Assembly (NCBI GenBank): GCA_017553505.1
Contig: JAFZLD010000012.1
Span: 1 to 38,494, forward strand
Origin: Lachnospiraceae bacterium
GTDB lineage: Bacteria; Bacillota; Clostridia; Lachnospirales; Lachnospiraceae
Reading direction: 5' to 3'
DNA length: 38,494 nt
The translations under genes and the position numbers were made by a program. The notes beneath the pieces are model-generated. The model was not told the DNA's origin. It searched no databases and saw only the letters and a list, made by a program, of their open reading frames with translations. Numbering within the stretch: position 1 is the first letter of the stretch; each line of letters begins with the position of its first letter. Shown here piece after piece: positions 5,208-23,701 of the stretch.

Positions 5208-7292
5208 ATGTTCGACACTTTTACAATGGACCTCGCAGGTCGTACCTTACGCGTTGATATCAACCGTGTAGGTAAGCAGGCTAACGGTTGTGCATTCATG
5301 CACTACGGCGATACCACCGTACTTAGCACTGCAACAGCATCAGATGCTCCCAGAGAGGGCATCGATTTCTTCCCTCTTTCAGTTGAATACGAGGAGAAGT
5401 TATACGCCGTAGGTAAGATTCCCGGCGGTTTCAACAAGAGAGAAGGCAAGGCATCCGAGAACGCTATTCTTACAAGCCGCGTTATCGACCGTCCTATGCG
5501 TCCCTTATTCCCCAAGGATTATCGTAATGATGTAACCCTTAACAACATGGTAATGTCGGTTGATCCCGAGTGCCGTCCCGAGCTTGTAGCTATGCTTGGT
5601 TCCGCTATTGCAACCGCTATTTCGGACATTCCTTTCGACGGCCCTTGCGCTATGACTCAGGTAGGTCTTATCAATGGTGAGTTCATCATCAACCCTACTC
5701 AGGAGCAGTGGAAGAACGGCGATCTTCAGATGACAGTTGCTTCTACCAAGCAGAAAGTTATCATGATTGAAGCCGGCGCCAAGATCGTTCCCGAGGAAAA
5801 GATTATCGAAGCTATCTACAAGGCTCACGATGTTAACCAGACAGTTATCGCTTTCATCGAAGACATCGTTGCCAAGGTTGGTAAGAAGAAGCACGAATAC
5901 GAGAGCTGCGCAATTCCCGCAGAGATGTTCGATGCCATGAAGGCTATCGTAACTCCCGAAGAGATGGAAGTTGCAGTATTTACCGACGAGAAGCAGGTTA
6001 GAGAAGAGAACATCCGCGTAATCACCGAGAAGTTCAAAGAAGCTTTCGCTGAGAACGAAGAATGGCTTGCTATCCTTGGTGAAGCAGTTTACCAGTACGA
6101 GAAAAAGACAGTTCGTAAGATGATCCTTAAGGACCACAAGCGTCCCGACGGTCGTGAGATTACTCAGATCAGACCTCTTGCGGCTGAAGTTGATATTATC
6201 CCCAGAGTTCATGGTTCTTCCATGTTCACCAGAGGACAGACACAGATTTGTGACGTATGTACTCTTGCTCCTCTTTCAGAGGTTCAGAAGGTTGACGGTC
6301 TTGATGAGAACGTTGTATCCAAGAGATACATGCACCACTACAATTTCCCCGCTTACTCAGTTGGTGAGACCAAGGTAAGCCGCGGACCCGGACGTAGAGA
6401 AATCGGTCACGGTGCACTTGCAGAGAGAGCACTTCTCCCTGTACTTCCTTCAGAGGATGAGTTCCCTTACGCAATCCGTTGCGTATCCGAGACCTTCGAG
6501 TCCAACGGTTCTACTTCAATGGGTTCCACCTGTGCATCTTGTATGTCCCTTATGGCTGCAGGTGTTCCGATTAAGGCTATGGTAGCAGGTATTTCCTGTG
6601 GTCTTGTTACAGGCGATACAGATGATGACTTCGTACTTCTTACCGATATCCAGGGCTTAGAGGACTTCTTCGGCGACATGGACTTCAAGGTAACCGGTAC
6701 TACAGAAGGTATCACCGCTATTCAGATGGATATTAAGATTCACGGTCTTACAAGACCCATCGTTGAAGGCGCTATTGCACGTTGCCGTGAAGCAAGACTC
6801 TTTATCATGGACAACTGCATGAAGCCCGCAATCGCTGAGCCCAGACCGACCGTTAATGAATATGCACCCAAGATTGTTTCCATCCAGATCGATCCCGAGA
6901 AGATCGGTGATGTTGTGGGACAGAAGGGTAAGACCATTAACGCTATCATTGCTCAGACCGGCGTTAAGATTGATATTACCGATGACGGTATGGTAAGCGT
7001 ATGCGGTACCGACATCGAAATGATAAATAAGGCCGTTGAGCTCATCAACATTATCGTATCCGACTTCGTTGAAGGCGAGATTTACAAGGGTAAGGTTGTA
7101 AGCATCAAGGAATTTGGCGCATTTATCGAATTCGCACCTGGAAAAGAAGGCATGGTTCACATTTCCAAGATTGCCAAGGAAAGAATTGACCATGTAGAAG
7201 ACGTTCTTACACTCGGCGACAAGGTTACCGTTAAGTGCCTTGGCAAAGACAAGATGGGCCGCATCAGCTTCTCCATCAAGGACGCTCAGTAA
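5208..7292 (+). CDS. pnp: Polyribonucleotide nucleotidyltransferase (PNPase)
   Basis: The 694-residue protein has the full PNPase architecture at the usual length. It starts with the first RNase PH domain (about 10-140, with PGGFNKREGKASE), then an alpha-helical linker, and the second RNase PH domain (about 310-545, starting RPDGREITQIRPL and containing the phosphate-binding S-T-S-M-G-S region). A KH domain with GQKG (about 555-610) and a C-terminal S1 domain (about 620-690) follow. The enzyme degrades RNA 3' to 5' by phosphorolysis as a trimer in the cytosol. The start is fixed by AAGGAGA at 5194-5200. The gene uses a narrow, highly expressed-type codon set, which is why long open frames appear on its opposite strand. 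A long leader hairpin suggests autoregulation, and a terminator follows. Confidence 0.98.
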   Translation: MFDTFTMDLAGRTLRVDINRVGKQANGCAFMHYGDTTVLSTATASDAPREGIDFFPLSVEYEEKLYAVGKIPGGFNKREGKASENAILTSRVIDRPMRPLFPKDYRNDVTLNNMVMSVDPECRPELVAMLGSAIATAISDIPFDGPCAMTQVGLINGEFIINPTQEQWKNGDLQMTVASTKQKVIMIEAGAKIVPEEKIIEAIYKAHDVNQTVIAFIEDIVAKVGKKKHEYESCAIPAEMFDAMKAIVTPEEMEVAVFTDEKQVREENIRVITEKFKEAFAENEEWLAILGEAVYQYEKKTVRKMILKDHKRPDGREITQIRPLAAEVDIIPRVHGSSMFTRGQTQICDVCTLAPLSEVQKVDGLDENVVSKRYMHHYNFPAYSVGETKVSRGPGRREIGHGALAERALLPVLPSEDEFPYAIRCVSETFESNGSTSMGSTCASCMSLMAAGVPIKAMVAGISCGLVTGDTDDDFVLLTDIQGLEDFFGDMDFKVTGTTEGITAIQMDIKIHGLTRPIVEGAIARCREARLFIMDNCMKPAIAEPRPTVNEYAPKIVSIQIDPEKIGDVVGQKGKTINAIIAQTGVKIDITDDGMVSVCGTDIEMINKAVELINIIVSDFVEGEIYKGKVVSIKEFGAFIEFAPGKEGMVHISKIAKERIDHVEDVLTLGDKVTVKCLGKDKMGRISFSIKDAQ

Positions 7293-7305
7293 GATTTGAT
7301 TTTTG

Positions 7306-7340
7306 GGCAGGTGCACGCAAGTGTACCTGCCTATTTTATT
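7306..7340 (+). terminator. Terminator after pnp
   Basis: Stem GGCAGGTGCAC/GTGTACCTGCC (7306-7316 with 7321-7331) has one G-T pair and a GCAA tetraloop, followed by TATTTTATT. It is a strong intrinsic terminator 14 bases after the pnp stop. Confidence 0.85.
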
Positions 7341-7363
7341 ATTTTGAAAAGAGGAAGACTTCC

Positions 7364-7870
7364 ATGAAGAAATCCGTTAAATATATTATTTATCTTGCGG
7401 TATGCGCATTACTTGTGGTACTCGATCAGATTACCAAGAACCTCGCAGTCGCTGCCCTTGAGGGTAAGGACAATGCCGTATGGATTAAGAATGTTTTTGA
7501 ACTTGAATATTGTGAAAATACAGGAGCCGCTTTTTCAAGCTTTACCGGCAAGCAGGGATTCTTGCTTACCATTACAAGCGTTGTGCTCATTCTTATCATC
7601 GTTGAATTCGTAAGAATTCCCGAAGGTAAGAGATATGCGGCTTTGCGTATAGATTTTCTTTTGATAGTAGCGGGTGCAATCGGTAACATGATTGACAGAG
7701 TCAAGCAGGGTTATGTAGTCGATTTCTTTTACTTCGTACCCGTTAACTTTCCCAGATTCAACGTGGCGGACATTTATGTGACCGTTGCGATGGCTATGCT
7801 TGTTATCCTTTTGTTCATTGTATACAAGGACAACGAGACTGAATTTTTATTCAAATTTAAGAAGAAATAA
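7364..7870 (+). CDS. lspA: Lipoprotein signal peptidase (signal peptidase II)
   Basis: The 168-residue membrane protein has four hydrophobic segments and both catalytic motifs: GNMIDR with Asp111 and FNVADIYV with Asp136. The early D-Q-x-T-K and the E-x-x-x-N-x-G-A-A-F motif (ENTGAAFS) are also present. LspA cleaves prolipoproteins after diacylglycerol attachment, so it would process the lipoprotein encoded at the left of this window. The frame is open further upstream into pnp, but ATG 7364 is chosen because it gives the family length, follows GAGGAAG and lies after the pnp terminator. The first residues MKKSVKYIIYLAV look like a normal LspA N-terminus. Confidence 0.96.
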   Translation: MKKSVKYIIYLAVCALLVVLDQITKNLAVAALEGKDNAVWIKNVFELEYCENTGAAFSSFTGKQGFLLTITSVVLILIIVEFVRIPEGKRYAALRIDFLLIVAGAIGNMIDRVKQGYVVDFFYFVPVNFPRFNVADIYVTVAMAMLVILLFIVYKDNETEFLFKFKKK

Positions 7871-7878
7871 GGTATAAT
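7850..7878 (+). promoter_or_regulatory. Probable deoB promoter
   Basis: TTCAAA (7850-7855) and a perfect TATAAT (7873-7878) are 17 bases apart. The -35 lies inside the end of lspA and the -10 just after its stop codon. It would give a leader of about 57 bases before deoB. Confidence 0.6.
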
Positions 7879-7942
7879 ATTTTGATGGGGTAATGGTTAA
7901 TTAACTGAGGGATTTGGGTCCCATACACAGGAGGTAGATTCC

Positions 7943-9094
7943 ATGAAGAGAGTTTTTTTAATCGTTCTCGACAGTTACGGTTGCGGTGAGATGCCCGATG
8001 CGGCCGATTTTGGCGACAAGGGTGCAAGCACCATCAAAAGCGTAGCTTCAAGTAAGTTCTTTAATGCACCGAACATGCGTAAGTTCGGTCTTTACAATAT
8101 CGACGGTGTAGATTTACAGCCCAAGGAGTCGAATCCTTCAGCGGTTTATTGCAGACTCGCTGAGGTTTCCAAGGGTAAGGACACCACCATCGGACACTGG
8201 GAGATTGCAGGCGTTCAGTCACACAGCCCCTTACCTACTTATCCCGACGGCTTCCCCAAGGAAGTGCTTGATGAGTTTAGTAAGGCTGTAGGTCGCGGAG
8301 TTCTTTGCAACAAGCCTTACTCAGGTACCGTAGTTATCAATGAGTACGGCGATGAGCATGTTAAGACAGGCGACTTGATTGTATATACATCCGCTGACTC
8401 CGTATTCCAGATTGCGGCTCATGAAGACGTGGTTCCGCTTGAGGAGCTTTACGATATCTGCCGTAAGGCCCGTAAGATTTTACAGGGTAAGCATGGCGTA
8501 GGAAGAGTTATAGCCCGTCCTTTCATCGGTTCTAACGGTAACTACACCAGAACCGCTCACAGACACGACTTTTCACTTGAGCCTACAGGTGTTACCATGC
8601 TCGACCAGCTTATCGAGAACGGTAAGAGCGTACTTGCAATCGGTAAGATTAACGATATTTTTGCAGGCAAATCCATTTCAGAGTTCACATACACTTCCGG
8701 TAACCCCGAAGGTATCGAACGCACCATCGAGTGGATGGACAGAGATTTCGAAGGACTTTGCTTTGTTAACCTTGTAGATACAGATATGATTTACGGCCAC
8801 AGACGTGACATCGACGGTTACGCTAAGGCTATTTCATACTTTGATGACAATCTTAAGACAATGATCGGTAAGATGCGTGATGACGACATCCTTATGATTA
8901 CCGCCGACCACGGCTGTGATCCCGGATATACCGCTACTACCGACCACACAAGAGAATACATTCCGCTTCTTATGTACGGCAAGAATGTGAAGCCCGGCAA
9001 CATGGGCACCAGAGATTCTTTTACAGACATCGGTGCGACTGTGCTTGATTACTTCGGCATCACTCCCAAGTTCCCAGGCAAGAGCCTGCTCTGA
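7943..9094 (+). CDS. deoB: Phosphopentomutase
   Basis: The 383-residue product fits DeoB, an alkaline-phosphatase-superfamily Mn enzyme that interconverts ribose (or deoxyribose) 1- and 5-phosphates in nucleoside salvage. Visible motifs are the N-terminal metal site VLDSYGCGEMPDA, DTTIGHWEIAG, the NLVDTDMIYGHRRD segment and TADHGCDP followed by DHTREYIPLLMYG, all in the family order. The usual N-terminal DSVG(I) is DSYGCG here, a mild variation. AGGAGG at 7931-7936 supports the ATG. It appears to have its own promoter. No nucleoside phosphorylase or deoxyribose-phosphate aldolase gene is adjacent, so it stands alone between lspA and prfC. Confidence 0.97.
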   Translation: MKRVFLIVLDSYGCGEMPDAADFGDKGASTIKSVASSKFFNAPNMRKFGLYNIDGVDLQPKESNPSAVYCRLAEVSKGKDTTIGHWEIAGVQSHSPLPTYPDGFPKEVLDEFSKAVGRGVLCNKPYSGTVVINEYGDEHVKTGDLIVYTSADSVFQIAAHEDVVPLEELYDICRKARKILQGKHGVGRVIARPFIGSNGNYTRTAHRHDFSLEPTGVTMLDQLIENGKSVLAIGKINDIFAGKSISEFTYTSGNPEGIERTIEWMDRDFEGLCFVNLVDTDMIYGHRRDIDGYAKAISYFDDNLKTMIGKMRDDDILMITADHGCDPGYTATTDHTREYIPLLMYGKNVKPGNMGTRDSFTDIGATVLDYFGITPKFPGKSLL

Positions 9095-9098
9095 CGAA

Positions 9099-9142
9099 CT
9101 TTCGTGCAATAAGGAATGGTACATTTACACGAAAGGATTTTT
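9099..9142 (+). promoter_or_regulatory. Hairpin covering the prfC ribosome binding site
   Basis: CTTTCGTG (9099-9106) pairs perfectly with CACGAAAG (9128-9135) around a 21-base loop, and GATTTTTA follows. The second arm contains most of the only Shine-Dalgarno-like stretch for prfC (GAAAGGA, 9131-9137). It could be a weak deoB terminator or an RBS-blocking hairpin. Confidence 0.45.
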
Positions 9143-9150
9143 ACGTAACA

Positions 9151-10743
9151 ATGGGTAGTTTTGATTCAGAAATAAACAGAAGACGAACCTTCGCCATAAT
9201 ATCTCACCCCGATGCAGGTAAGACGACTCTTACTGAGAAGTTCTTATTATACGGCGGTGCCATCAATCTGGCAGGTTCGGTTAAAGGTAAAGCAACCGCG
9301 CGTCATGCGGTTTCCGACTGGATGGAAATAGAGAAAGAGCGTGGTATTTCCGTTACTTCCTCAGTACTTCAGTTTAACTATGACGGATATTGCATTAACA
9401 TTCTTGATACCCCGGGTCACCAGGACTTTTCAGAGGATACATATCGTACCCTCATGGCAGCCGACTCCGCGGTAATGGTAATAGACGGCGCAAAGGGCGT
9501 AGAGCCCCAGACACGTAAGCTCTTCAAAGTCTGCGCCATGAGAGGTATCCCGATTTTCACATTCGTTAACAAAATGGACCGTGATGCCAAGGACACCTTC
9601 GAACTTTTGGATGACGTAGAGACAGAGCTTGGTATCGCTACCTGTCCCTGCAACTGGCCTATCGGCTCCGGTAAGGGATTTAAAGGTGTATACGACAGAC
9701 AGACTCAGAAGATAGTCACCTTCTTTGACACCCAGAAGGGTACCAAGGAAGGTACGACAGACGTAGTAGATTTATCAGACACCGAAGGTGTGATCAAAGA
9801 AATCGGTCAGGACGCTTACGACAAGCTTACCGAGGAAATCGAGCTTCTTGACGGTGCCAGCGCAGAGTTTGATATCGATGCGGTAAGAAGCGGTAAGCTT
9901 ACACCTGTTTTCTTTGGCTCCGCTCTTACGAACTTTGGTGTTGAGATATTCTTACAGCACTTCCTTAAAATGGCTACGACACCTCTTCCCAGACACACGG
10001 AAGAGGGCGATATCGACCCTACAAGCGACGATTTCAGCGCATTCGTATTCAAGATTCAGGCCAACATGAACAAGGCTCACAGAGACCGTATCGCGTTCAT
10101 GCGTATCTGCTCCGGTAAGTTCGATGCCGACAACGAAGTTAAGCACGTTCAGGGCGGCAAGGTCATGAGACTTTCCCAGCCTCAGCAGATTATGGCTGAC
10201 GAAAGAAAAATATTAAGCGAAGCCTACGCAGGCGATATTATCGGCGTATTCGACCCAGGTATGTTCTCAATCGGCGACACTGTATGCGCTCCCAAGCGTA
10301 ACATTAAGTACGAAGGTATTCCTACTTTTGCGCCCGAGCATTTTGCAAGAGTGCGCCAGATTGATACCATGAAGCGTAAGCAGTTTGTTAAGGGCATCAC
10401 CCAGATTGCTCAGGAGGGTGCGATTCAGATATTCCAGGAGCTTAACTCCGGTCTTGAGGAGATTATCGTGGGCGTTGTAGGTGTGCTTCAGTTCGACGTA
10501 CTTAAGTACAGACTTGAGAACGAGTACAATGTTGAAATCAGACTTGAGCCCCTTCCGTACGAGCATATCAGATGGATTGAGAATACGGACATTGATGTAG
10601 CTAAGCTTACCGGTACTTCCGATATGAAGAAGGTTACCGACTTAAAGGGCCGTCCTTTGCTCCTCTTTGTTAACCCCTGGAGCATTCAGATGACCATAGA
10701 CAGAAACAAAGGCTTGGAGCTTTCCGAGTTTGCAAGAAACTAG
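9151..10743 (+). CDS. prfC: Peptide chain release factor 3 (RF3 GTPase)
   Basis: The 530-residue protein is a translational GTPase of RF3 length. It shows G1 (SHPDAGKTTLTEKF), a switch I region with ERGISVTSSV, G3 (DTPGHQDFSEDTYR) and G4 (NKMDRDA), then domains II and III with the RF3-typical EIIVGVVGVLQFDVLKYRLENEY. RF3 recycles RF1/RF2 from the ribosome after termination and takes part in post-peptidyl-transfer quality control. The T-ending of G1 and the ISVTSSVLQF segment distinguish it from EF-G. The spacing of AAGGA (9133-9137) to the ATG is long at 13 bases, and the site lies in a hairpin, so initiation may be weak or controlled. The next gene starts 19 bases downstream. Confidence 0.97.
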   Translation: MGSFDSEINRRRTFAIISHPDAGKTTLTEKFLLYGGAINLAGSVKGKATARHAVSDWMEIEKERGISVTSSVLQFNYDGYCINILDTPGHQDFSEDTYRTLMAADSAVMVIDGAKGVEPQTRKLFKVCAMRGIPIFTFVNKMDRDAKDTFELLDDVETELGIATCPCNWPIGSGKGFKGVYDRQTQKIVTFFDTQKGTKEGTTDVVDLSDTEGVIKEIGQDAYDKLTEEIELLDGASAEFDIDAVRSGKLTPVFFGSALTNFGVEIFLQHFLKMATTPLPRHTEEGDIDPTSDDFSAFVFKIQANMNKAHRDRIAFMRICSGKFDADNEVKHVQGGKVMRLSQPQQIMADERKILSEAYAGDIIGVFDPGMFSIGDTVCAPKRNIKYEGIPTFAPEHFARVRQIDTMKRKQFVKGITQIAQEGAIQIFQELNSGLEEIIVGVVGVLQFDVLKYRLENEYNVEIRLEPLPYEHIRWIENTDIDVAKLTGTSDMKKVTDLKGRPLLLFVNPWSIQMTIDRNKGLELSEFARN

Positions 10744-10762
10744 ACCGAAAGAAGCAGTTGTA

Positions 10763-13579
10763 ATGAAAAAGCTTTTGGATTATATGCGTCCTGAGAGCAA
10801 GAAGAAGCTTATTGCAGGTATTATCGTTTCTGCGATTCTGCTTGCGCTTATGTTTGCTTTCGGCGTAGGCGGTAAAAAGCATATGGTTCTCGGCGCGGCA
10901 CTGTGCCTCGGAACAGGCTTATTAGTTGCTTTCAGAAGACTCAATTTTTATCAGTCGCTCGTATGCGGAATTCTTTATCTGATTGTGGTTCCGCTTAGAA
11001 TGTTCTACAGGCTGGAACTTCCGATTAATAATCTTGTGTACACAAAGCGTAGTGCCATTATTATCAGCCTTGTTCTGATTTATGTGTTGTACCTTTTCTT
11101 TTACATAGTGACACAAAGAATTGGGGCTTCGTTTGGCGTAACGGGCATTTTCCTGCTTGTGCTTACAATTGCCGAGTATTATGTTTTTACTTTCAGAGAT
11201 ATGGCTATAAGCTTCGCAGATTTATTTGCGATAAGAACAGCCATTTCGGTAAGCGGTGAGTACAATTACACACCTTCGAGTGAGTTAATTTACAGCGTTT
11301 TATGGTTCGCTTTCTTCATAGCCTTAGGATTTAAGATTAATATATCGCCTAAGAGTATTAAGGAGCGGTTTGCGGGATACAGAGCGGTGCCGGTGCATAT
11401 TGCGGCGAGCGCTGCGGCTGCGGTTATAGTGTTCGGTTTCTTTTACATTATTGTGAAGACTCCGTTTCTTGCCAATCATGGCGTTAACGATGACAGCTGG
11501 GCTGAATGTCAGTTAAATTTAACCAACGGCTGTCTGATGTATCCTTTTGTTGAGCTTCGTGCCGGCAAGATTGACAAGCCTTCAGACTATTCGGCGGAGC
11601 GATTGCTTCAAATCGGCGGAGATTATTCGAACAGTTTTGTATCGCCCCGTGAGGAGAAGACTGAGAGACCCAATATCATTCTTATCATGAATGAGGCCTT
11701 CAGCGACCCGAGAGTGCTTGGGGATTTTGAGACCGGTCAGGAGCTTATGCCCTTTATGGACAGCCTTTATACAAGCGAGCGTTCCATAAGAGGCAACCTT
11801 TATATGCCGGTGCTCGGAGGACTTACCGTTAACAGTGAGTTTGAGGTGCTGACGGGTAATTCGATGTTCTTTCTTTCGGCAAGCTCGATTCCTTATGAGA
11901 CATCCATCAATTCTCCGATGCCGTCTCTGGCCAAGGAACTTGAGGCAATCGGGTATTCATCCATGGCAATGCATCCGCATGTGAGAATTGCTTACGGAAG
12001 AGATACCACTTACGAGAACTTCGGTTTTGATGAGTTTATAGATGTTAACGATTTCACGGTTAATATAGAGACTGTAGGCGCATACCCCGACGATGCGACC
12101 AATTATCGTGAGATAATCAAGCGATTCGAGTCAAGGGATAAGGACAAGCCGTTCTTTCTTTTTGACGTAACGATACAGAATCATTCACCGTACTGGAAAA
12201 AAGTGAGAGATACCAAGATTCTCTCCATTAACGGAACTTCCGAGGATTACGGTGAGAAGTACAGTCTTGAAGAGACGTACTTTGATTTGTTAAGAAAGTC
12301 CGATGATGCTTTTAAAGAACTCGTTGAGTACTTTGAGACGGTGGACGAGCCGACGATTATTTGCATGTTCGGCGATCATGAGGCAATTCTTTCGGACGAT
12401 TTCTACGACGCGGTTTTCGAAGGCACAGGCTACTCTGAGCAGAAGAAAAACGAGTTAAAATACATCACTCCCTACGTCATGGTGGCCAATTATGACGCTG
12501 ACTTTGAGAGCATGGGAGATTTCAGTGCCAATTACCTCGGAGCGGTTTTGCTTAACGAATTGGGACTTCCGATGTCACAGTTCAGAAAGTTCCAGCTTCA
12601 GGCTATGGATACTTACCCGATTATGTCGGTTCATGAACTTGCCGACGCAAGAGGCGTAAGCATTGACAGAGCGGATAACTCTGACAATGAATTAATCAAC
12701 GCGTATCGTATGTTCCAATATGATATGATGTTTGGTAAGGAGCCTACGGATGCCGTATATGTGCCGGAAGCCTACGGGAATGTTGCCGTGGCAGATGCAG
12801 GAGGCTTAAGCGAAGAATGGTATAACAAATTCACTACAGTGACTCACGCGCTCGGAACTACCGGCGATGGGCAGCTAGGCACCAATTCGCGAGAAGCTTT
12901 CATCTACAATTACAAGCGTGGCCAGAGACTGTTTGAAGCGGACATTCAGATAACTTCGGACGGTGTTGCGGTTATAAGGCATGACTGGGAACAGGATTTG
13001 GGCCAGGGACTTTCTTTGGCAGGAACCGACGGAACGGTAAGAGTACCGACGGCGGAAGAGTTCCTCAGCAAGAAGATATACGGCAAATACACGCCTTTGA
13101 CACTTGAAGAGTGGTTCGAGCTGATGGATGAGTACCCCGATGTATGGCTTATTACCGACAGTAAGTACAGCGGTACGGTAACGGAAGACTTTAAGCTCTT
13201 TCGTGATACAGCCGTTAATAGCGGTCATGCAGATGTACTTAACAGGGTTATAGTTCAGTTGTACTATCCGGAGATGTATGACGAGGTTGAGACCGCAGGA
13301 CATTTTGAACACTATATACTTACGCTGTATATGACCGGTTATCCCGAAGACAGTTCGGAGATGCTTAAGCTTCTTGAAAGCGACAAGGTAGATGCATTGA
13401 CCATGCCGGAAGACTATGTGGTCAATGAGCGGGTATTAAACGATATTGCGGGCAGACAGAATTACAAGGTGTTCCTGCACACAGTAGACGACCCTGAGAA
13501 GGCTGCGGAGCTTATGCAGTACGTGGACGGGCTCTACACCGATACACTGCTTGAGAGGCAGGTAAGAAGCATGAAATAA
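10763..13579 (+). CDS. LTA-synthase-like sulfatase domain fused to GDPD-like domain
   Basis: This 938-residue protein has about seven N-terminal membrane segments, then an extracytoplasmic sulfatase-fold domain of the LtaS/phosphoglycerol transferase type (about 300-590). Its motifs are MNEAFSD (metal Glu), GGLTVNSEFEVLTG with the probable nucleophile Thr355, MHPH and FGDHEA. After a linker comes a GDPD/PI-PLC-like TIM barrel (about 690-930): THALG with His695, GTNSREAF, FEADIQITSDG with Glu725 and Asp727, and RHDW with His740. LtaS enzymes polymerise glycerol phosphate onto lipid or sugar; GDPD enzymes hydrolyse glycerophosphodiesters. The TNS in place of the usual ENT resembles the uncharacterised GDPD/PI-PLC branch. 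An upstream TTG at 10730 is in frame, but ATG 10763 gives a normal N-terminus without overlapping prfC. The fused activity is inference. Confidence 0.88.
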   Translation: MKKLLDYMRPESKKKLIAGIIVSAILLALMFAFGVGGKKHMVLGAALCLGTGLLVAFRRLNFYQSLVCGILYLIVVPLRMFYRLELPINNLVYTKRSAIIISLVLIYVLYLFFYIVTQRIGASFGVTGIFLLVLTIAEYYVFTFRDMAISFADLFAIRTAISVSGEYNYTPSSELIYSVLWFAFFIALGFKINISPKSIKERFAGYRAVPVHIAASAAAAVIVFGFFYIIVKTPFLANHGVNDDSWAECQLNLTNGCLMYPFVELRAGKIDKPSDYSAERLLQIGGDYSNSFVSPREEKTERPNIILIMNEAFSDPRVLGDFETGQELMPFMDSLYTSERSIRGNLYMPVLGGLTVNSEFEVLTGNSMFFLSASSIPYETSINSPMPSLAKELEAIGYSSMAMHPHVRIAYGRDTTYENFGFDEFIDVNDFTVNIETVGAYPDDATNYREIIKRFESRDKDKPFFLFDVTIQNHSPYWKKVRDTKILSINGTSEDYGEKYSLEETYFDLLRKSDDAFKELVEYFETVDEPTIICMFGDHEAILSDDFYDAVFEGTGYSEQKKNELKYITPYVMVANYDADFESMGDFSANYLGAVLLNELGLPMSQFRKFQLQAMDTYPIMSVHELADARGVSIDRADNSDNELINAYRMFQYDMMFGKEPTDAVYVPEAYGNVAVADAGGLSEEWYNKFTTVTHALGTTGDGQLGTNSREAFIYNYKRGQRLFEADIQITSDGVAVIRHDWEQDLGQGLSLAGTDGTVRVPTAEEFLSKKIYGKYTPLTLEEWFELMDEYPDVWLITDSKYSGTVTEDFKLFRDTAVNSGHADVLNRVIVQLYYPEMYDEVETAGHFEHYILTLYMTGYPEDSSEMLKLLESDKVDALTMPEDYVVNERVLNDIAGRQNYKVFLHTVDDPEKAAELMQYVDGLYTDTLLERQVRSMK

Positions 13580-22507: not shown

Positions 22508-23701
22508 ATGGATATAGATTGGGAACAGAAAAAAAGGGGTTTCAGGGCAGTATATTTTTTCTCCTTGCTTATCTACTTCACCGTTCTTTTTATGCTGTAT
22601 TTTAATCAGACGGCAGTCTTATATAACGGAGCGAATAACTTTGAATCGGATACCGCGGTTCACATCAGAATGGCTGTTGTTGACGGGTATTATCACAGTC
22701 TTGCCGCTTTTGTTTATTTGTTTTTTGCGAAAATTGTGAGATTTGAAGCAGCTCTTATGTTGATAGCAACTTTGCTTGCTATTCTTACTGTGGGCGCAAT
22801 TCCGCTTACGGCGGGGCTCGTGCGCGAAGTGTTAAAAAGAAGCGGAGTGGAATTATACGATCCAATTATCTGGGTCATTGCTTTTGCCGGTAACGTACTT
22901 ATCGCTTTCTACGTAAAGGCGGCGAATCGCGCGCATTATATCGGTTATCAGAGCCCGAATATGTGGCACAATTCCACTTATACGTTTATGCGATTCTTTG
23001 CGATTCTTACGATGATTGTTTTCCTTAAATTGTATGATGATTATAAGGATAAGGTGTCGGTTTGGAAGTGGCTTCTTTTTACGCTTCTTCTTACAGTTAC
23101 AACAGGCTTTAAGGCCAGCTTCTTGACTGTCTTCGCGCCGGTGCTTGCGATTGTTCTTATCAGGGATTTGTGTAAGAAGACCAAATTTTGGAACGTGTTC
23201 TTTATGGCTTTAAGCGTTGTTCCACCTATTGCCGTCATGGTAGTTCAAAGCATCGTTTTGTCCGGTACCGACGGCTCTAACGGGTATGCCATCAAGCCTT
23301 TTGCGGCTCTTAGCATGAGGGGCGACCATCCAAAGGCAGCGCTCGTTCTTTCCGTGTTGTTCCCGGTTATTCTTTTGCTGGCGCATATTAAGGATTTTTA
23401 TAAGGATAAGTATTATTTCTGGTCGCTTGTGATGTGGGCGGTTGGATTTGTTGAGGTATTTCTCTTCATAGAGACCGGCGAGCGTGCGCTCGACAGTAAC
23501 TTTATGTGGGGATACTCCATATCGTTGTTCTTCCTTTTTGTTTCATCGATGATCAGGCTGTTCAAAGACCTTTTTATCGAAAAAACAAGTATTGTCGTAA
23601 AGATAATAGGTTGTGTTGCTGCGGCAGCGCTTGTATGGCATGTGGTGAGCGGCATCAATTATCTCAGTATACTCTATTCGGGGGTAACGTATTTTGCCTG
23701 A
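22508..23701 (+). CDS. Polytopic membrane protein, possibly GT-C-like
   Basis: The 397-residue protein has about ten hydrophobic segments. The first extracytoplasmic loop carries an acidic motif region (NNFESDTAVHIRMA) and a following HSL, reminiscent of GT-C glycosyltransferases that use a dolichyl- or undecaprenyl-phosphate sugar. A later loop holds YQSPNMWHNSTYTFMRFF, a pattern also seen in polytopic transferases of this kind. No domain can be named with confidence, so a glycosyltransferase role is only a suggestion. The ATG follows the recN stop directly, and AAAGGA lies 11 bases upstream. The tcdA start overlaps its end. A probable role in surface polysaccharide or glycolipid assembly would fit the other envelope genes in this window. 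Confidence 0.7.
   Translation: MDIDWEQKKRGFRAVYFFSLLIYFTVLFMLYFNQTAVLYNGANNFESDTAVHIRMAVVDGYYHSLAAFVYLFFAKIVRFEAALMLIATLLAILTVGAIPLTAGLVREVLKRSGVELYDPIIWVIAFAGNVLIAFYVKAANRAHYIGYQSPNMWHNSTYTFMRFFAILTMIVFLKLYDDYKDKVSVWKWLLFTLLLTVTTGFKASFLTVFAPVLAIVLIRDLCKKTKFWNVFFMALSVVPPIAVMVVQSIVLSGTDGSNGYAIKPFAALSMRGDHPKAALVLSVLFPVILLLAHIKDFYKDKYYFWSLVMWAVGFVEVFLFIETGERALDSNFMWGYSISLFFLFVSSMIRLFKDLFIEKTSIVVKIIGCVAAAALVWHVVSGINYLSILYSGVTYFA

Follow-up and report, generated by a model that had tools for sequence, protein, structure and literature searches.

A Lachnospiraceae membrane protein joining a phosphoglycerol transferase-like domain to a variant glycerophosphodiester phosphodiesterase, and the recurrent pairing of this hydrolase class with glycerol phosphate transferases

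How glycerol phosphate (GroP) decorations and lipoteichoic acid (LTA) are trimmed or removed after their synthesis is, to our knowledge, largely open outside GlpQ, WhyD and the like. On the synthetic side, GacH is reported to cleave phosphatidylglycerol and to attach GroP to GlcNAc side chains (PMC12282279); on the degradative side, GlpQ is described as specific for sn-glycerol-3-phosphate and unable to degrade intact LTA, a polymer of sn-glycerol-1-phosphate (PMC7086022). Here we analyze a stretch of 38,494 nucleotides (the window: positions 1 to 38,494, forward strand, of contig JAFZLD010000012.1, Lachnospiraceae bacterium assembly GCA_017553505.1), in which one gene encodes a 938-residue membrane protein, hereafter the 938-aa fusion, with a sulfatase-fold domain of the GacH/LtaS type and a variant glycerophosphodiester phosphodiesterase (GDPD) domain. 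We tentatively read this protein as a membrane-tethered GroP writer combined with a GroP-diester hydrolase that would trim or remove GroP, and place the probability of this reading at roughly 0.45. Both domain families are already known, and the finding, which began with a single unusual protein, is extended here to a pairing that recurs; among the titles and abstract openings listed by targeted searches of open-licence articles, none describes the sulfatase-GDPD combination.

The features of the 938-aa fusion are the following.
10763..13579, + strand: coding sequence of the 938-aa membrane protein, with a membrane module, a phosphoglycerol-transferase-like sulfatase domain and a variant GDPD (open reading frame, Pfam, alignment)
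10811..11455, + strand: N-terminal membrane module with seven predicted transmembrane (TM) segments, residues 17-231 (hydropathy only)
11669..12490, + strand: sulfatase-fold PF00884 domain, GacH/LtaS-like, residues 303-576 (Pfam, PDB-sequence matches)
11825..11827, + strand: T355, predicted nucleophile, in GGLTVNSEF (alignment)
12374..12379, + strand: D538-H539, predicted metal ligands, in FGDH (alignment)
12713..12808, + strand: linker between the catalytic domains, residues 651-682, with the highest dN/dS among the parts compared (0.175, from just 10 changes)
12809..13561, + strand: variant GDPD domain of the HAxG/TNS/DxK class, residues 683-933 (Pfam, alignment)
12845..12847, + strand: H695, catalytic His of the motif equivalent to HRG, here HALG (alignment)
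12935..12943, + strand: E725 and D727, metal ligands (alignment)
12980..12982, + strand: H740, second catalytic His (alignment)
13157..13165, + strand: D799-S-K801, the third metal ligand (Asp, where the canonical residue is Glu) and a Lys (alignment)

The two catalytic halves of the 938-aa fusion

An earlier reading of the DNA letters (the sequence-only reading) had described a single 938-residue protein fusing LTA-synthase-like and GDPD-like parts, and this was borne out: translation of 10763-13579 (+) gives 938 residues with zero internal stops, and the domain search matched PF00884 at residues 303-576 (E 9.1e-29, 101 bits, cut-off 25) and PF03009 at residues 707-928 (E 8.6e-10, 39.6 bits, cut-off 23.6), the latter placing the GDPD region within its superfamily. 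Thr355, the FGDH motif (F536-G537-D538-H539), His695, Glu725, Asp727 and His740 all lie where that reading had put them. A frameshift or misassembly as the origin of the fusion, of which it had seen no sign, is ruled out because two further full-length copies exist, 97% (L012) and 48% (L013) identical.

The nearest solved sequence to the 938-aa fusion is GacH (E 1.3e-19, spanning residues 268-549), followed by the LTA synthase chains 4uoo (E 8.7e-17), 2w5q (E 6.4e-10) and 2w8d (E 1.4e-9), and the LTA primase 4uop is matched as well (E 2.6e-8). In alignment with LtaS-type proteins, seven of the seven tested residues (E311, T355, H404, R413, H474, D538, and H539) are kept in both the 938-aa fusion and its 48% relative; from LtaS work we take these to be metal ligands, the Thr nucleophile and substrate-binding His/Arg, the nucleophile role of T355 and the metal-ligand role of D538-H539 being presumed from homology to LtaS and GacH. 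The label LTA-synthase-like thus holds loosely, as GacH and then LTA synthase chains are nearest, and fails for the LtaS equivalog of NCBIfam (NF053595), on which the protein scores 64.6 bits and the cut-off of 970 is not reached. The product therefore need not be LTA, and the safe name for this half would be a phosphoglycerol transferase of GacH/LtaS type. Only one more protein of the host genome (G000, 3.13 Mb) passes the PF00884 cut-off, a distant one of 731 aa, and a search of this genome with P0001 as query gave no match besides the 938-aa fusion itself.

Since the N-terminus of the protein is rich in Lys and Arg, both catalytic domains are predicted to be extracytoplasmic. Compared with the 97% copy, dN/dS is 0.082 for the membrane part, 0.048 for the sulfatase and 0.068 for the GDPD, and both catalytic domains are under purifying selection.

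In the GDPD half three linked changes alter the active site: HRG has become HAxG (Ala696), ENT has become TN[S/C] (T707-N708-S709), and the third metal ligand is Asp for Glu (D799). The loss of the Glu of ENT had been recognized in the sequence-only reading, which had not mentioned the changes at Ala696 and Asp799. With HALG, TNS, and D799 the 938-aa fusion has none of the three marks of canonical GlpQ-like enzymes (HRG, ENT, and Glu as third ligand). Across an alignment of 20 class GDPD domains the first His, the E-x-D and the third Asp never vary, and conservation of the second His, like that of the Lys, is at least 90%. When 50 class domains were set against 41 canonical GDPD domains from the same genome set, position 696 was A, S or G in 48/50 vs. 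Arg in 38/41, position 707 was Glu in 0/50 vs. 41/41, and position 799 was Asp in 48/50 vs. Glu in 33/41 (5 gaps, 3 others). All four of H695, E725, D727 and H740 have their counterparts in 44 of the 50 class domains, the exceptions being L087, L096, L097 (second copy), L100, L146 and L148 (gapped at the first His). Judged by these residues, the HAxG/TNS/DxK GDPDs form one consistent variant class, in which the predicted catalytic set is mostly complete and the active site is altered elsewhere, and since three residues suffice to recognize it the class can be annotated across Clostridia. Its profile best matches the GP-PDE-domain proteins 9f49, 9eul and 9euf and the B. subtilis GlpQ 5t91. The host genome has one other GDPD, of about 290 aa.

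The three linked changes suggest a chemistry or substrate unlike that of a canonical GDPD, and the domain could be a synthetase or transferase making a phosphodiester, for instance by moving GroP from a carrier to a second acceptor or by forming a cyclic product. The GDPD-derived effector AvrBs2 is reported to be a synthetase (PMC12807533), and its profile weakly matches L104 (E 9.5e-4), L139 (E 0.0026) and L146 (E 0.0033). However, these matches reach 15-17 bits vs. a cut-off of 1000, the 938-aa fusion itself is at E 0.09, and neither the catalytic His pair nor the metal ligands have been lost; we consider a synthetic role quite improbable.

Variant GDPDs were also seen in other architectures. 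One is fused to a 4HBT thioesterase-like domain (L140:7455-8747 (+), genome G752, 430 aa), and in three loci the GDPD follows Cu_amine_oxidN1, which is over its cut-off in L134 (7264-8631 (-)) and under it in L086 and L094. A protein of 1146 aa (L090:8336-11776 (-)) has, by Pfam, GBS Bsp-like repeats and a C-terminal GDPD, and a protein of L093, close to it in length, may share this layout.

Recurrent pairing of the variant class with GroP transferases

Matches to the GDPD profile occurred in 21/391 genomes of the class, 72/339 of the order and 7/388 of the phylum, the host included each time. A first set of 48 loci combined the 30 loci of the family search with 18 more from the search of the taxonomic class, which had given 20 places outside the host (G077 had already been included, and G531 was omitted because its genus was represented four times), and up to about 8 kb on each side was examined, less at contig ends. 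With custom models, 11 of the 48 loci had a GroP-transferase partner: two as LtaS-like fusions (L143 and L146), one as TagF fusions, and eight as neighboring LtaS- or OpgB-like genes, at distances in bp of -3 (L073), 7 (L145), 40 (L075), 345 (L091), 427 (L074), 531 (L076), 1107 (L077), and 3329 (L139). In L073, L074, L075 and L091 the neighboring sulfatases are 508-532 aa long and best match OpgB-type phosphoglycerol transferases. The TagF case is L097 (G194), where two tandem proteins (6490-8535 and 8982-11129, (-)) carry an N-terminal variant GDPD and a C-terminal TagF/TarF-like CDP-glycerol glycerophosphotransferase (PF04464). Two further sulfatase fusions, L142 and L144, are recognized by Pfam (L144 below its cut-off) and were missed by the custom sulfatase models; they stand outside the count of 11, which with them becomes 13/48. 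L100, where a TagF-like gene lies at a distance of 4.1 kb, was likewise not counted as partnered.

The same models found a partner at 0/40 canonical GDPD loci of set-1 genomes (582 kb vs. 702 kb for the first set), giving Fisher p values of 0.0008 for 11/48 and 0.0002 for 13/48. These 40 controls were the strongest canonical GDPD rows of a search over 42 of the 47 set-1 genomes, minus G515:C27; 15 added loci (G515:C27, weaker canonical rows, and the canonical GDPDs of G000, G014, G015 and G194) had no partner either, for a total of 0/55, two lower-scoring canonical rows (G761:C25 and G395:C76) being left out. A second set took one genome per genus from the order, for 28 genera in all; except for that of G1406, these genera were absent from the first set (27 new ones). 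In it 5/28 loci had a partner: two LtaS-GDPD fusions, L226 (836 aa) and L228 (837 aa), and three neighbors within 909 bp, with L235 overlapping by 28 bases, L225 at 478 and L222 at 909. The long frames of L226 and L228 were known before this set was chosen, each being the sole matching genome of its genus. Over both sets, 16/76 loci were partnered vs. 0/40 controls (Fisher p 0.001) or 0/55 with the added ones; related genomes are not independent, and the p values are therefore guides only.

A functional link between this GDPD class and GroP transferases is thus supported, the pairing being recurrent with three kinds of GroP transferase. LtaS-like fusions occur in six further genomes of four families, TagF-like fusions in one genome. 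On the NCBIfam LtaS model the fused sulfatase domains score 222 (L143), 296 (L146), 277 (L226), and 312 bits (L228), and L146 matches 2w8d at E 1.3e-63. By hydropathy the two TagF-fused proteins have zero TM segments, and the nine GDPD proteins of the eight neighbor loci of the first set have at least one each; the class GDPD appears to go where its partner goes.

The partners also bear on whether the GDPD acts on a lipid. It might be a lipase that cleans up or recycles phosphatidylglycerol, lyso-phosphatidylglycerol (LPG) or a related by-product beside the transferase, leaving the polymer untouched. The S. aureus GDPD enzyme LpgD is described as an LPG phospholipase D in membrane homeostasis (PMC10404611), a lipid-acting partner would be sensible beside an enzyme that, as reported for GacH, cleaves phosphatidylglycerol (PMC12282279), and L097 weakly matches the NCBIfam LPG phospholipase D family (E 1.6e-4, below the cut-off). 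The 938-aa fusion, however, has no match to that family up to E 0.1, and the class is also fused, in two copies in L097, to TagF-like enzymes, which draw on CDP-glycerol; what its partners have in common is a GroP diester as product. We regard a purely lipid-directed role as somewhat unlikely.

Some of the transferase-like genes deserve mention in their own right. L097 holds two more TagF-like genes within 6.2 kb (custom model). The LtaS-like protein of L225 (9329-11608 (+), G1170, 759 aa), 478 bases from the variant GDPD gene, may carry an S-layer homology domain in its C-terminal region (22.2 bits, cut-off 20.8). In G360 a protein of 1070 aa (L110:6507-9719 (-)) has a family 2 glycosyltransferase domain followed by an LtaS-like sulfatase; the gene next to it encodes another long LtaS-like protein (813 aa).

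Distribution, history and locus of the fusion

Besides the host protein, full-length copies of the 938-aa fusion were found in Lachnospiraceae bacterium YSD2013 (L012, 97% identical and thus very close; G015/L002 is equally identical), and in UBA3632 (L013, 48%), which comes from a collection other than the 397 family genomes and whose copy lies between genes named by eye as prephenate-dehydrogenase-like and leuS-like. Among the genomes sampled, L142, L143, L144, L146, L226 and L228 are further sulfatase-GDPD fusions. Within the genus the full-length fusion is present in 2/18 genomes, the host included. P0001 is matched in 309 of the 397 sampled family genomes and, apart from the host protein, all among the matches listed end by residue 681, two candidates having been scored per genome; the GDPD domain is matched in 30/397, and with custom models the host alone has both domains in one protein.

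The genome G014, of the same genus and 82% complete, presents the two halves apart. The protein encoded between its prfC and nusB/xseA genes has 669 aa, ends at the linker and lacks a GDPD (L103:9635-11644 (-)), with 64% identity to the 938-aa fusion in the sulfatase and 53% in the TM part. On another contig a 540-aa protein (L104:3535-5157 (+)) joins a homologous membrane module to a GDPD with no sulfatase (TM 42%, GDPD 56%). In the TM tree L104 pairs with UBA3632 (92/88) and L103 with the 938-aa fusion (84/89); the L104 GDPD stands beside that of the 938-aa fusion in the first GDPD tree (93), the branching order being open in the second. It is plausible, with moderate support, that a bifunctional protein was duplicated and that each copy then lost the half which the other retained; both functions would thus survive on two membrane proteins.

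A single clade of LtaS-fused GDPDs was rejected by the approximately unbiased (AU) test at p 0.0007, for a group that included L104 (GDPD on the membrane module only), left out L146 and was picked after a similar tree was known. In the sulfatase tree (built without L226 and L228), too, L143 and L146 fall outside the clade of the 938-aa fusion, and the TagF-fused GDPDs form a separate group in the GDPD trees (96; 100), whose tested members, L095, L097, L099, L100 and L102, have no TM segments. The simple reading would be two or more gains of the fusion, the alternative being a single ancient fusion followed by many losses. A residue comparison of eight sulfatase-GDPD proteins showed both sites complete in the 938-aa fusion, UBA3632, L226, L228 and L143 (Ser for Thr), whereas L146 has lost the GDPD site, and L142 and L144 the sulfatase site; of the TagF-fused GDPDs of L097, the second copy also lacks catalytic residues. 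In bifunctional enzymes with opposed activities one half may die while the chain stays joined, and by analogy we suggest that a dead half may have a regulatory or docking role.

These data also speak to whether the domains were joined by chance, with no functional coupling. In favor of this, the exact GacH-like fusion is rare (2/18 within the genus, the host alone in 397 family genomes, plus UBA3632). Yet the fused GDPDs are not one clade, the pairing involves three kinds of GroP transferase (16/76 vs. 0/55), both parts are under purifying selection and both functions are retained on two proteins in G014, all of which makes a chance fusion very unlikely.

In the window the gene order is pnp, lspA, deoB, prfC, the fusion gene, asp23-like, nusB, xseA and a polyprenyl synthetase gene. 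The prfC stop is at 10743, 19 bases before ATG 10763 (the mechanical open reading frame begins upstream, at TTG 10730), and the asp23-family gene starts 75 bases downstream of the fusion gene. None of the nine Pfam-scanned neighbors (prfC, asp23-like, nusB, xseA context) was named as a phosphate-regulon gene, which argues against phosphate scavenging, i.e., a GDPD that degrades the cell's own or foreign GroP polymers, with the LtaS/GacH membrane module as a mere anchor. Secreted GlpQ enzymes are reported to degrade wall teichoic acid under phosphate limitation and WhyD, a GlpQ domain on a seven-TM anchor, to trim this polymer (PMC9208761), a layout resembled by L104. In the 938-aa fusion, however, both active sites are intact and selected, and the sulfatase is therefore not just an anchor; scavenging seems to us unlikely. 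Elsewhere in the window, 22508-23701 (+) encodes a 397-aa protein that is polytopic by eye.

A proposed writer and eraser of GroP, and its known relatives

In the reading we prefer, the 938-aa fusion would be a membrane-anchored, extracytoplasmic two-enzyme unit handling surface GroP. The sulfatase domain would, judging by homology and intact residues, take GroP from phosphatidylglycerol via T355 and pass it to a surface glycan, a glycolipid or a growing GroP chain, in the manner of GacH and LtaS; the variant GDPD would hydrolyse an adjacent glycerophosphodiester, most likely trimming or removing GroP of the same kind, and a writer and an eraser in one chain could set the number or length of GroP groups. 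GDPDs are described as acting through a neighboring hydroxyl and a cyclic intermediate (PMC10404611, PMC6299612), and the GroP groups that GacH or LtaS attach to a glycan or build into a chain would offer the hydroxyl that this chemistry needs. We infer both activities, the outside location and a single substrate pool for the two domains. Of the coupled polymer synthesis and editing proposed in the sequence-only reading, the functional link is therefore upheld by recurrent fusion and pairing, absent at canonical GDPD loci, and the shared substrate belongs to what we infer.

Several points weigh against this reading. GlpQ does not cut intact LTA, which is of the other enantiomer (PMC7086022), and an eraser of an LtaS- or GacH-type product would therefore need a different stereospecificity. 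The three linked active-site changes may provide such a switch. TagF-like enzymes use CDP-glycerol and no phosphatidylglycerol, so the GDPDs fused to them would need the sn-3 form; their separate tree group and absence of TM segments would allow them a different specificity. No GroP-transferase partner lies in the examined stretch of 60/76 class loci (58 if L142 and L144 are counted), so that the class acts in trans or serves other functions. For the canonical loci 34 genomes were used, with none from G501, G549, G787 and G701, which hold class-level fusions, or from the second set. The exact GacH-type fusion is rare, and by its residues one active site is lost in three sulfatase fusions, so that joint activity would not always be kept. 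Finally, AlphaFold2 run on three full-length fusions (3-row alignment) gave pLDDT 32.8 and pTM 0.25, and the model was not used.

A broader proposal, which as a whole we consider possible but doubtful, is that HAxG/TN/DxK GDPDs constitute the eraser half of a GroP writer-eraser system widespread in Clostridia. Their active-site changes would confer specificity for sn-glycerol-1-phosphate diesters of the LtaS, GacH and OpgB types, which GlpQ leaves uncut, and the fused form would be a single-chain bifunctional editor of surface polymers, either half of which could degenerate into a regulatory pseudo-domain, much as happens in bifunctional second-messenger enzymes. Being repeatedly tied, by fusion or gene pairing, to makers of GroP diesters, this hydrolase class is an obvious candidate for the eraser that is missing, the recurrence of the pairing in related bacteria suggests that cell-surface editing may be built in, and the single-chain form makes the writer-eraser idea testable in one gene.

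Among described enzymes, WhyD of S. pneumoniae (seven TM segments and a GlpQ domain) is a membrane-tethered GDPD, as is predicted of the 938-aa fusion, and tailors a surface polymer; unlike it, WhyD is described as TM segments and a GlpQ domain only, with no transferase (PMC9208761). LpgD (PDB 8ghh) is a GDPD enzyme acting on a membrane lipid, in the published account of which no transferase is described (PMC10404611). The phosphoglycerol transferase I OpgB/MdoB is the best family for the sulfatases of L073, L074, L075 and L091, which are separate genes and fall below the OpgB curated cut-offs. With the GlpQ-type GDPD of B. subtilis (5t91), a teichoic-acid hydrolase, the 938-aa fusion has in common the barrel, the His pair and two acidic ligands, and differs from it in HALG for HRG, TNS for ENT and Asp for Glu as third ligand. 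LtaS and LtaP (PDB 2w5q, 2w8d, 4uoo, 4uop) have the fold and, by alignment, the key residues in common with the 938-aa fusion, and LtaS is nearer to the sulfatase domains of L143, L146, L226 and L228 than to that of the 938-aa fusion; LtaS has five TM segments, whereas seven are predicted here, together with a GDPD. The nearest solved relative remains GacH (PDB 5u9z, 5wcx, 6dgm), which transfers GroP to the group A streptococcal carbohydrate and as far as we know carries no GDPD; its solved chains are fragments of 382-383 residues, and to this type of enzyme the 938-aa fusion adds a GDPD.

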